9,446 bases of DNA from Candidatus Atribacteria bacterium (lineage in GTDB: Bacteria > Atribacterota > JALVIU01): NCBI GenBank assembly GCA_027028665.1, contig JALVIU010000281.1, forward strand, positions 1 through 9,446. Reading direction: 5' to 3'. Below the pieces are notes generated by a model. The model was not told the DNA's origin. It made no database searches and saw nothing but the letters and a program-made list of their open reading frames with translations. The position numbers were made by a program, and so were the translations under genes. Positions 4,359-8,274 of the stretch are shown piece after piece (the stretch's first letter is position 1; every line of letters begins with the position of its first letter).

Positions 4359-4410
4359 TCTTTATCCTCAATTTTTTATTTTCCCTCTATTTATCTTCTA
4401 TAATTTCATC

Positions 4411-4418
4411 AAGGAGGT
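4411..4418 (+). promoter_or_regulatory. Strong ribosome binding site that fixes the phoH start
   Basis: AAGGAGGT is an 8-base exact complement to the usual 16S rRNA 3' end. It lies in the 69-base gap between the yqeY stop and phoH. Nine bases after it, in the phoH frame, is ATA (4428-4430). No ATG, GTG, TTG or CTG lies at a usable distance in the phoH frame, so this site is the main evidence for the ATA start. Confidence 0.75.
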
Positions 4419-4427
4419 AGACCAAAG

Positions 4428-5387
4428 ATAAAGAAAATAGAGATAAATTCAGTAGGTAGTGACGAATTAAGAGAAATTTCAGGAAAATGGGATGAAAATC
4501 TAAAATTAATTGAAGAAGAATTTGAAGTAAAGATAAGAATAAAAGATGGAAGTTTTATTATCTTTGGGAAAAATCACCTTACAGATCAGGCTGCAGAATT
4601 AATTACAGAGTTATTAAATACAGTGAGAAAAGGAAAGTCAGTTTCTTTTTCTCTTATAAAGTATGGATCTGCCCTACTTAAATCCGGAAGTCATTTTAAT
4701 CATGAAACCTACTCAGATATTATTCAAATTACCAGAAAGGGAAAGGAGATAAGGGCAAAGACTCCTGGACAGCAACGATTTGTAGATGCAGTGAAAAAGA
4801 ATGATATAGTTTTTGTCATAGGGCCTGCAGGTACAGGGAAAACATATCTTGCTACAGCAATGGCCGTAGCCTATTTTAAAGAAAAAAAAGTTTCAAGGAT
4901 TATTTTAGTACGTCCTGCAGTAGAAGCAGGAGAAAATCTAGGATTTTTACCAGGTGATCTTTTGGAAAAAGTTTCTCCTTATCTTAGACCCCTCTATGAT
5001 GTTCTATTTGAATTGATAGGTATAGATAAATTTGAAGGATATCTTGAAAAGGGTTTGATAGAAGTTGCTCCTCTTGCATATATGCGAGGAAGAACCTTAA
5101 ATGATTCTTTTATTATATTAGATGAGGCACAAAACACTACTCCAGAGCAGATGAAAATGTTTCTTACACGATTTGGTTTTGGTTCAAAAATTATAGTCAC
5201 TGGAGACATTACTCAGATTGATCTTCCAGGTGGAAAGGCTTCAGGACTTGTAAAAATTCAAGAGATTTTAAAAAATATCGAAGGAATATCTTTTATATAT
5301 CTTAATGAAACAGATGTAGTAAGGCATAAATTAGTTAAAAAGATTATAAAGGCTTACGAGATCTACGAAAATCCTCAAAATGAGTAA
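4428..5387 (+). CDS. phoH: PhoH-like ATPase, probable AUA start codon
   Basis: PhoH-family cytoplasmic P-loop ATPase, related to superfamily 1 helicase cores and linked to RNA metabolism; its gene commonly neighbours ybeY. From ATA 4428 the protein has 319 residues, the normal length. The N-terminal part (about 1-65) contains a KH-like segment (LIEEEFEVKIRIKDGSF...) seen in PhoH proteins. The ATPase core has Walker A GPAGTGKT at 132-139 and Walker B ILDEAQN (DEAQN at 232-236), with the conserved RPAVEAGENLGFLPG and TGDITQIDLP stretches. The frame is open from 4404, after a TAA at 4401. Its first conventional start is GTG at 4623, which would remove 65 residues including the KH-like segment and has no well-placed ribosome binding site. 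Codon-like, family-like sequence continues upstream of 4623 to the AAGGAGGT, so an AUA start is the best reading; an ATG-to-ATA sequencing error is the main alternative. The stop overlaps pgpH by 8 bases. Confidence 0.9.
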   Translation: MKKIEINSVGSDELREISGKWDENLKLIEEEFEVKIRIKDGSFIIFGKNHLTDQAAELITELLNTVRKGKSVSFSLIKYGSALLKSGSHFNHETYSDIIQITRKGKEIRAKTPGQQRFVDAVKKNDIVFVIGPAGTGKTYLATAMAVAYFKEKKVSRIILVRPAVEAGENLGFLPGDLLEKVSPYLRPLYDVLFELIGIDKFEGYLEKGLIEVAPLAYMRGRTLNDSFIILDEAQNTTPEQMKMFLTRFGFGSKIIVTGDITQIDLPGGKASGLVKIQEILKNIEGISFIYLNETDVVRHKLVKKIIKAYEIYENPQNE

Positions 5388-7314
5388 ACTTAAGATAAAA
5401 AAGGAAAATATCAAGCTCTATTTCAGTTTTTTAATCTCCTATATTATTATAGCCACTCTGTTGAGCTTTTCTTATTATAATGAATATACCTTCTGGAAAT
5501 CCGGAGACATAACACCGAACGATATTGTTTCATCAAGTTTTCTACAAATGAAAGATTCTTGGAAGAGTTCACAGATAGGAGTAGGAAAAGATATATTAAA
5601 CGCAAAAAACAAGAGTTTTGAAGACTTTTTGAATACTATAGATGAATATTTTTCTTCTTTAAAGCTTGATCCGTCGCAGCACATTTTTCCAGAGGAGAAG
5701 ATAGATGAAATCAGACTTATAGTGAATGAACTTTTACTTACCGCCTTTAATAAGACGAAAAATTCAAAAAGTCTAAGAGATATTTTTAATTATTTTTATA
5801 ATGATTTAGAATTAGTAAATGGACTTTCTTCCGAGGAAAAAGATAAAATAAAAAAGATTATAGTAAAGTTGTCAAGCAAATTTTATCTCCAGAAAAAGCT
5901 CAAGTTTATCTCATCTACATTTACACCACGGAAGTCCTCTATTAAGCCAGGCGAGATCGTTATAAAAAGTGGTACAAAGCTTACGAATAAAGATTTAAAA
6001 TTGTTGCGAAAATTACATGTAAAGAAGAAAAACATTCCTATTTTTAATTTTGTATCCCTTTTTCTTCTTTCATTTATTATATATTTACTTTTCTTTTTTT
6101 ATTTTCTTTTATTTGCAAAAGAATTTTTAAAGAATCTTAAAAAAGTTTATTTACTATTAACTATTTTGATATTCGGTGTTTTATTGGGAGTAGTTATATT
6201 GCCTACTTATTTTTATATATTCCCCATACCTTTTTTTGCTATAATTATAGCTATATCAATAAATTTAAACATTGGGATTGCTTATGTATTTACTCTAACC
6301 CTTTTGCTTTCTTTTATTATTGGTGGTAAAATATTTTATTTTATGACTATTATGATGTTGTCTGGGATTACTTCTGTATTTTTGGTAAATAATCCTAAAG
6401 GGAGGTCTGTTTTTACAAAAACAGGTGTAGTCGTAGGCACCTTAAATTTTTTTCTTATAATCTTTTTAGACATCTATAAATTTAATTTTTCTATAGCTAC
6501 TGCAAAAATTGCTCTTTTAGGATTTTTTACAGGCTTTTTTTCTCCTATTATGGTTTTAGGAATACTTCCTATAATTGAGGATATCTTTACCATTTCTACT
6601 TCTATAAAACTACTTGAACTATCTGATCCCTCTCACCCTCTTCTTAAGAGACTATTAGATGAGGCACCAGGTACATATCAACATAGTGCTATAGTTTCTA
6701 ATTTAGCAGTAGCAGCGGCCTCTACTATAGGTGCTGACCCCCTTCTTGCGAGAGCTGGCGGATTCTATCATGATATAGGAAAGTTGAAAAGGCCTTATTT
6801 ATTTATAGAGAATCAGATGTCAAATAAAAATATACATGATGAAATTCAGCCTACTTTGAGTACACTCGCTATAATCTCACACGTCAAAGATGGGGTAGAA
6901 TTAGCAAAAAGGTATAATCTTCCAGAAGAAGTTATAAATATAATAAGAGAACATCATGGTACAAGTCTTGTATCATATTTTTATTTTCAGGCAATTAAGA
7001 AGCCTTCTAAAAAGGATGAACTGTCTGAAGAGGATTTTAGATATCCTGGACCGAAACCACAATCTAAAGAAGCAGCAATAGTTATGTTGGCAGATGCGGT
7101 AGAGGCAGCATCGAGAACTCTTACAAATCCTACTGCTACAAAGATAAGAAATTTTATCAAGTCGATTATTCAAAAGATTGTAGATGATGGGCAACTGGAG
7201 GAAAGTCCTTTGACTTTTAGGGACATAAATCTAATTGAAGAGACATTTGAGAAATTTCTCCTTTCTCTTTTTCATACCAGAATTGAATATCCAAAAATAA
7301 AACAGAAGGAGTAA
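5380..7314 (+). CDS. pgpH: 7TM-HD family cyclic-di-AMP phosphodiesterase PgpH
   Basis: Membrane HD-domain enzyme; characterised relatives (Listeria PgpH, B. subtilis YqfF) hydrolyse cyclic di-AMP to pApA, controlling potassium and osmotic balance. The 644 residues show an N-terminal membrane anchor (about 14-32), a long extracytoplasmic domain (about 33-217) ending with the IKPGEIVIKSGTKLT signature, a block of about seven hydrophobic helices (about 222-405), and a cytoplasmic HD domain (about 425-635). Metal ligands are visible: H435, the H464-D465 pair in FYHDIGK, H501 and H525-H526 in EHHGT, followed by YPGPKPQSKEAAIVMLADAVEA. Overlap with phoH as ATGAGTAA and the lack of a good Shine-Dalgarno site indicate translational coupling. 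No diadenylate cyclase gene is in the window. c-di-AMP specificity is inferred from the family. Confidence 0.95.
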   Translation: MSKLKIKKENIKLYFSFLISYIIIATLLSFSYYNEYTFWKSGDITPNDIVSSSFLQMKDSWKSSQIGVGKDILNAKNKSFEDFLNTIDEYFSSLKLDPSQHIFPEEKIDEIRLIVNELLLTAFNKTKNSKSLRDIFNYFYNDLELVNGLSSEEKDKIKKIIVKLSSKFYLQKKLKFISSTFTPRKSSIKPGEIVIKSGTKLTNKDLKLLRKLHVKKKNIPIFNFVSLFLLSFIIYLLFFFYFLLFAKEFLKNLKKVYLLLTILIFGVLLGVVILPTYFYIFPIPFFAIIIAISINLNIGIAYVFTLTLLLSFIIGGKIFYFMTIMMLSGITSVFLVNNPKGRSVFTKTGVVVGTLNFFLIIFLDIYKFNFSIATAKIALLGFFTGFFSPIMVLGILPIIEDIFTISTSIKLLELSDPSHPLLKRLLDEAPGTYQHSAIVSNLAVAAASTIGADPLLARAGGFYHDIGKLKRPYLFIENQMSNKNIHDEIQPTLSTLAIISHVKDGVELAKRYNLPEEVINIIREHHGTSLVSYFYFQAIKKPSKKDELSEEDFRYPGPKPQSKEAAIVMLADAVEAASRTLTNPTATKIRNFIKSIIQKIVDDGQLEESPLTFRDINLIEETFEKFLLSLFHTRIEYPKIKQKE

Positions 7315-7318
7315 AAAT

Positions 7319-7780
7319 ATGGAAGTAGAAATAATAAATAAAATGGACTCAGGGCTACCTATTGATTGTATAAGATGGTTTGTAACTCTTTTGTTGGAGA
7401 GAGAAGATACTGATGAAGAGACTGAGATATCCATTTTATTCACAGATAATGAAAATATAAGAATTCTTAACACTGCCTATAGAAAGAAAAATAAACCTAC
7501 GAATGTATTATCTTTTAGTATGAGAGAGGGTACTCCTGTACCTTTTAATAATATATTAGGAGATATTGTAATTTCTGTAGAATATGCTAAAGAGGAGGCT
7601 AAAGACTTAGAGATAGATATGCGAGACAGGATTATTCAATTAGTCATTCATGGGACTTTACATTTGTTGGGTTATGATCATATAAAAGATGAAGACTATG
7701 CAAAAATGAAAGAAAGAGAAGATACATATTTTGAACTTTGGCTAAAGGAGAAAGATAAATGTATGAAAATGAGAAGTTAG
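7319..7780 (+). CDS. ybeY: YbeY endoribonuclease / rRNA maturation factor
   Basis: Zinc-dependent single-strand RNase family (UPF0054) involved in 16S rRNA 3'-end maturation and ribosome quality control. The 153 residues match the family. The metal motif HGTLHLLGYDH is intact, with H111, H115 and H121 as the three zinc ligands. The RKKNKPTNVLSFSM and ILGDIVIS stretches are also typical. The ATG at 7319 lies 7 bases after AAGGAG (7306-7311) and 4 bases after the pgpH stop, so it is in the same operon. phoH-pgpH-ybeY is a conserved order, and phoH-ybeY linkage supports a shared RNA-processing role. The 3' end overlaps the next gene by 22 bases and contains that gene's ribosome binding site. Confidence 0.96.
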   Translation: MEVEIINKMDSGLPIDCIRWFVTLLLEREDTDEETEISILFTDNENIRILNTAYRKKNKPTNVLSFSMREGTPVPFNNILGDIVISVEYAKEEAKDLEIDMRDRIIQLVIHGTLHLLGYDHIKDEDYAKMKEREDTYFELWLKEKDKCMKMRS

Positions 7781-8274
7781 ATATTCTCATGGCTTTGAGA
7801 AACGGTCTTTCTCATCATTTTAATATACTTGAAGATCACAAATTTTATATATATGGATTTGATATAGTAGCGAAAGCCATACTTGAGAACTATAGAACAA
7901 TTTTTGGGGCAATAAAATTTGATAGATTTTATAGTTTTGAATTTGCTCTTGTAAAATTTTTGGGTAGGTATAATTTAGCAGAAATCGAGAAATATATAGA
8001 GCTGGTAAAAGATAAATATTTTGAACTTTTTACTCCTTCTTCAGACGTTATGGGTACAATGATTACTTTTATTTTTATAGCACCGGGGATAGATAAAAGA
8101 GGTATATCATTTTTGGATAGATTTCGTTATCAGAAGAGTTTCTTGTTGGGGCTAAAAGGAAAATATGAAATGAGAATAATTTTTTTTGACAGAAAGAATA
8201 AAATTATATATACTAATAAAAATGCAAAAGTACTCAAGAATTACTACGAGAAATTATTAAAAGAAAGGAGGTGA
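7759..8274 (+). CDS. Unrecognised 171-residue protein coupled to ybeY
   Basis: I cannot assign a function. The frame is well supported: AAGGAG (7745-7750) lies 8 bases before the ATG, and the gene overlaps ybeY by 22 bases. The product is soluble-looking, mixed helical and beta, with no cysteine, no signal peptide and no clear membrane helix. Visible segments are an N-terminal helix with SHHFNI, a central pair of helices (FALVKFLGRYNLAEIEKYIE, then VKDKYFELFTP), a beta-like MGTMITFIFIAPG, then RYQKSFLLGLKGKYEMRIIFFD, and a C-terminal IIYTNKNAKVLKNYYEKLL. From memory, this last pattern (KSF..GLKG, then ..TNK.) resembles uncharacterised clostridial proteins filed as DUF8052. That is an unverified recollection. 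The position corresponds to where dgkA/era/recO follow ybeY in Bacillus, but none of their motifs is present. The stop codon lies inside a strong Shine-Dalgarno sequence. Confidence 0.85.
   Translation: MYENEKLDILMALRNGLSHHFNILEDHKFYIYGFDIVAKAILENYRTIFGAIKFDRFYSFEFALVKFLGRYNLAEIEKYIELVKDKYFELFTPSSDVMGTMITFIFIAPGIDKRGISFLDRFRYQKSFLLGLKGKYEMRIIFFDRKNKIIYTNKNAKVLKNYYEKLLKERR
8264..8274 (+). promoter_or_regulatory. Perfect Shine-Dalgarno overlapping a stop codon
   Basis: AAAGGAGGTGA is an 11-base exact complement to the usual 16S rRNA 3' end. Its last three bases are the TGA stop of the preceding gene. No ATG, GTG, TTG or CTG follows at a normal distance. The ATA at 8277, five bases after GGAGG, is the only candidate initiator nearby. 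The site is too far (about 70 bases) to serve the cstA ATG directly. Confidence 0.6.

Follow-up and report, generated by a model that had tools for sequence, protein, structure and literature searches.

On its forward strand, the DNA analysed here (the window, all 9,446 nucleotides of a stretch from a Candidatus Atribacteria MAG, designated G000) carries the phoH gene, for which we propose the coordinates 4428–5387 (319 residues; Pfam PF02562, 4e-96; best PDB match 3b85), followed by a gene for a YqfF/PgpH-type 7TM-HD protein (5380–7314; Pfam PF07698 and PF01966) and by ybeY, which encodes the rRNA maturation RNase (7319–7780; TIGR00043, 1.6e-38). The PF02562 domain, together with the nearby ybeY, identifies the phoH product as an ATPase of the YbeZ/PhoL type. 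The phoH-yqfF order is conserved throughout the phylum. Beginning with an ATG, yqfF shares its first 8 bases with the end of phoH (ATGAGTAA), and ybeY starts after a gap of 4 bases, an arrangement which allows translational coupling. Past ybeY there is a further open reading frame of 171 amino acids (7759–8274, forward strand) with no match in Pfam or NCBIfam.

The phoH frame follows a TAA stop (4401–4403) and, as an earlier note on this DNA had stated and our reading of the sequence confirms, it is open from 4404, running to 5384 with its own stop at 5385–5387. It begins with the codons TTT CAT CAA GGA GGT AGA CCA AAG ATA, the last of which occupies 4428–4430. In agreement with the same note, no ATG, GTG, TTG or CTG occurs in frame between 4404 and the GTG at 4623–4625, which is the only conventional in-frame start ahead of the core of the ATPase domain. 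A Shine-Dalgarno sequence was sought before this GTG and none was found. The 8-base Shine-Dalgarno sequence AAGGAGGT lies at 4411–4418, with the ATA nine bases 3' of it as previously described, and is complementary to the usual 16S tail, which was taken as the reference and may not be that of this MAG. No other start-like codon fits the position determined by this element, so that ATA is, as had been proposed, the sole codon in the initiation position. The full conserved protein cannot be obtained from any ATG, GTG or TTG in phoH: translation from the GTG would give 254 residues versus 319 from the ATA, which is the loss of 65 residues calculated before. Folding of the RNA at the phoH start gave nothing exceeding shuffled sequences, and a regulatory RNA fold at this site was rejected.

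The absence of a conventional start is weak evidence when taken alone, since a run of 73 codons devoid of ATG, GTG and TTG is expected by chance about 5% of the time under the codon usage of this window. Codon usage was also scanned over 491 kb of the MAG, in 369 genes having an upstream stop. Ahead of the first conventional start, phoH showed a coding signal of 30.2 bits, the highest of all these genes (the next one reached 9.8 bits). The family-like sequence reported upstream of the GTG was also found, as residues 1–65 match the proteins of a related family, f5, with 23–28 identities over 54–62 positions. An AlphaFold model of PhoH, built from 36 sequences (mean pLDDT 87), contains a compact domain up to residue 67 (4428–4628, forward strand; block pLDDT 90–94), composed of a strand (residues 2–6), helices (11–32), strands (35–47) and a helix (49–67), and its first strand begins at residue 2 as counted from the AUA. 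According to this model, the AUA start is predicted to yield the complete N-terminal domain, which initiation at the GTG would delete. The segment had been called KH-like; its loss with the GTG start holds, and the resemblance is limited to the modelled order of strand-helix-helix-strand-strand-helix, with no family match.

The phoH starts were then compared among 49 genomes of the same phylum, which represent six families other than that of G000 and do not include its own genus or family; the nearest relatives compared share at most 61% protein identity, and one scan of genome contigs for named close relatives returned nothing above 60% identity. The f5 family comprises 14 genomes, in 11 of which phoH was found. 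ATA GAA is present at one aligned codon in 10 of these 11 genes, from four genera, and none of the ten has a usable ATG, GTG or TTG (in one of them, L008, a non-conserved TTG lies more than 20 codons upstream). The eleventh gene (G041) has ATG GAA at the aligned codon. The upstream DNA is not conserved in f5, and the alignment becomes tight abruptly from the Shine-Dalgarno-like GAAAGTAGGGA just before the ATA, an onset that looks as at a translation start. As ATA is a common isoleucine codon in this family (8 of 33 isoleucine columns are at least 90% ATA), its constancy here proves little alone. The persistence of ATA in four genera, and the presence of ATG at this position in a fifth, speak for initiation at AUA and against an assembly slip. 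The starts read as ATG in f2 and, as far as they could be read, as TTG in f3, f4, f6 and f7. The earlier note had looked to close relatives for ATA at 4428, or for ATG as evidence against it; those available come from other families and are split, with ATA in 10/11 f5 genes, ATG in f2 and G041, and TTG in the remaining four families. In the phoH tree G000 is sister to f2 plus f5, its placement being less sure because it forms a long row. Given the ATG of f2 and G041, the AUA has either a single origin, with loss in both, or several origins. In G000 it may be an event separate from that of f5, since f2, the sister of f5, uses ATG and G000 belongs to neither family.

Agathobaculum desmolans (L077), a named isolate from a second phylum, also possesses a phoH gene without any conventional start. 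The usual pattern in 21 Agathobaculum phoH genes is AAGCAAGGTG, about 6–8 bases, and ATA GAA; the codon in the start region is ATA in 20 of 21 species and ATC in one, whereas ATA accounts for only 16 of 408 other isoleucine codons of the same genes. A GTG within the Shine-Dalgarno-like motif lies in frame in 14/21 genes; in the other 7 it is either missing or in another frame. In sister genera of the same family an ATG is found close to that place in 20 of 20 phoH genes, and in the nearest of them it stands exactly one codon ahead of the codon homologous to the one preceding GAA. Most likely, then, an ancestral ATG was lost in Agathobaculum and the former codon 2 turned into the start. It is rather likely, judging from these alignments, that the phoH of this genus also starts at AUA; GTG could serve as a start in 14 species, in L321 a GTG immediately precedes the ATA, the ATC before the ATA could serve in A. 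desmolans, and A is abundant in the first codons of these genes in any case. A rumen Clostridia MAG (L065) has a phoH with no ATG, GTG or TTG before the conserved region, the likely start being CTG or ATT.

Other genes of G000 were inspected for similar starts. Its infC, encoding IF3, starts with AUU (L142); in the other genomes of the phylum that were read (loci L112–L149) infC starts with AUU in f5, AUC in most of f4 and f6, and AUA in f2 and some of f4, so f2 has AUA where f5 has AUU. For infC of f5, an ATA start was discarded and the ATT two codons further on preferred, the ATA being missing in two genomes. AUA is the most plausible start of hisIE (L162, G000:C1, 1848–2483, reverse strand), where it overlaps the preceding stop as ATAA, and of comEC (L283, G000:C111, 8376–10628, forward strand), where it does so as ATAG and 105 codons lack a conventional start. 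In birA (G000:C1, 1201–1848, reverse strand) an overlapping AUA is less clear, as CTG fits too. Such overlaps are a non-AUG counterpart of the ATGA overlap. The hisIE and comEC starts indicate that G000 tolerates AUA. There are 36 genome-wide sites with a strong Shine-Dalgarno sequence and ATA, 30 of which were inspected; phoH fits, and perhaps one MFS gene (L223), in which a GTG overlapping the Shine-Dalgarno sequence competes with the ATA. The remaining inspected sites are intragenic, belong to short frames or are followed by ATG or GTG, and the idea that genes of G000 commonly start at AUA was rejected. phoH is the clearest AUA start with a strong Shine-Dalgarno sequence in this genome. In samples of G023 (239 genes) and G062 (345 genes) no further AUA start was prominent, which indicates that the codon is particular to phoH there. 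Three flags raised for G062 by the upstream-coding scan appear to be antisense frames close to the edges of chunks, and one for selD of G023 (L189, 7690–8676, forward strand) reflects an in-frame stop within the conserved N-terminal part, which is probably a TGA for selenocysteine.

We consider it highly probable, on the evidence of the sequence comparisons, that phoH of G000 genuinely starts at AUA 4428, which is much the best reading. An error of consensus or assembly would need only a single base (ATG to ATA), and G000 is a 413-contig MAG of 90% completeness and the one genome for its species in the comparison; however, ATA occurs in the same role in ten other assemblies, all from f5, and AUA is the sole plausible start of further G000 genes (hisIE, comEC), which makes a true ATG at this site improbable. 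Even less probable is a PhoH truncated to 254 residues: GTG can legitimately initiate and leaves the Pfam ATPase domain complete, but this codon is without a Shine-Dalgarno sequence, the coding signal and homology upstream of it are strong, and a well predicted domain would be cut at its last helix. Several AUA starts would be accounted for at once if ATA were reassigned to methionine or if there were a special initiator tRNA carrying the anticodon UAU, and a CAT-anticodon tRNA was not found on the incomplete MAG. Many other tRNAs are missing as well, which points to incompleteness. ATA is the commonest isoleucine codon of this genome (5.2% of codons) and aligns with conserved isoleucine columns, while ATG aligns with methionine. 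Reassignment was therefore rejected as hardly credible: ATA is plain isoleucine inside genes and the genetic code is unchanged.

The very probable AUA start of phoH looks like a low-strength setting that was kept, rather than a sequencing slip, because it recurs in related bacteria and probably in one gut genus unrelated to them. A different matter is whether it has any regulatory meaning. The AUA starts of f1, f5 and Agathobaculum could have drifted from ATG under a strong Shine-Dalgarno sequence; this is a real prospect, falling somewhat short of an even chance, and it rivals the mechanism proposed below and not the start itself. The other AUA starts of G000 overlap upstream stops and are explicable without regulation, and f2 and G041 manage with ATG. 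Retention of the phoH AUA across several genera, and the lack of other prominent AUA starts in G023 and G062, argue against drift.

If the AUA is used, the ordinary initiator tRNA would translate phoH from it, and the long Shine-Dalgarno sequence nine bases upstream would anchor the mRNA to the 30S subunit, permitting low-rate initiation at the mismatched codon. Ribosome profiling in S. aureus revealed AUA starts preceded by long Shine-Dalgarno sequences, which give approximately 10–30% of the AUG output (PMC13009471). The weak codon would be kept for limiting PhoH synthesis and for its responsiveness to IF3; the same may apply to yqfF and ybeY, which begin within or just after the gene ahead of them. 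Sensitivity to IF3, as suggested in the earlier note, seems reasonable because the IF3 gene is encoded in the G000 MAG and is itself AUU-initiated. In Streptomyces, IF3 represses a GTC start (PMC5472188). YbeY is a binding partner of YbeZ/PhoH, and E. coli ΔybeY cells carry more IF3 on their 30S subunits (PMC5101352). A loop can be envisaged in which accumulating immature 30S subunits would tie up IF3 and lower discrimination against AUA, after which more PhoH and YbeY would be made and 16S maturation completed. That phoH is the second gene of 30S biology, after infC, with recurrent and retained weak AUN starts, through which IF3 on the 30S subunit feeds back on the PhoH-YbeY pair in 16S maturation, is a tentative proposal which we regard as rather unlikely.

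With its very probable AUA start, phoH would join a known but very small class of genes with weak starts, including infC, pcnB, sigR and S. aureus ccpN. Similarly to infC, which starts with AUU in E. coli, AUC in Streptomyces and AUA in S. aureus, phoH is tied to 30S function and has a rare AUN start conserved over genera; whereas IF3 represses its own gene, PhoH is a different protein, over which this factor could exert at most an indirect control. The AUA of phoH with its extended Shine-Dalgarno sequence resembles the starts of S. aureus ccpN (AUA, conserved), citZ (AUA) and cvfC1 (AUU) (PMC13009471), although those belong to other genes in another phylum and are experimental, while that of phoH is known from sequence alone. 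Streptomyces sigR shares a non-canonical start overlooked by annotation, but this is GTC, the product is a sigma factor, and repression by IF3 is proven there (PMC5472188). In E. coli pcnB a weak start also limits a protein of RNA metabolism, but the codon is AUU and the gene is different. A literature search for phoH with an AUA start found no description, and as far as the papers searched show, its recurrence in this gene is undescribed. Such starts are known for very few bacterial genes, most of them discovered singly, whereas the AUA of phoH is kept over genera, lies in an operon with the RNase maturing the 16S 3' end and probably occurs in the culturable Agathobaculum, which opens a connection of IF3 with ribosome maturation to direct testing. 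In such genomes, gene callers will report a truncated PhoH.
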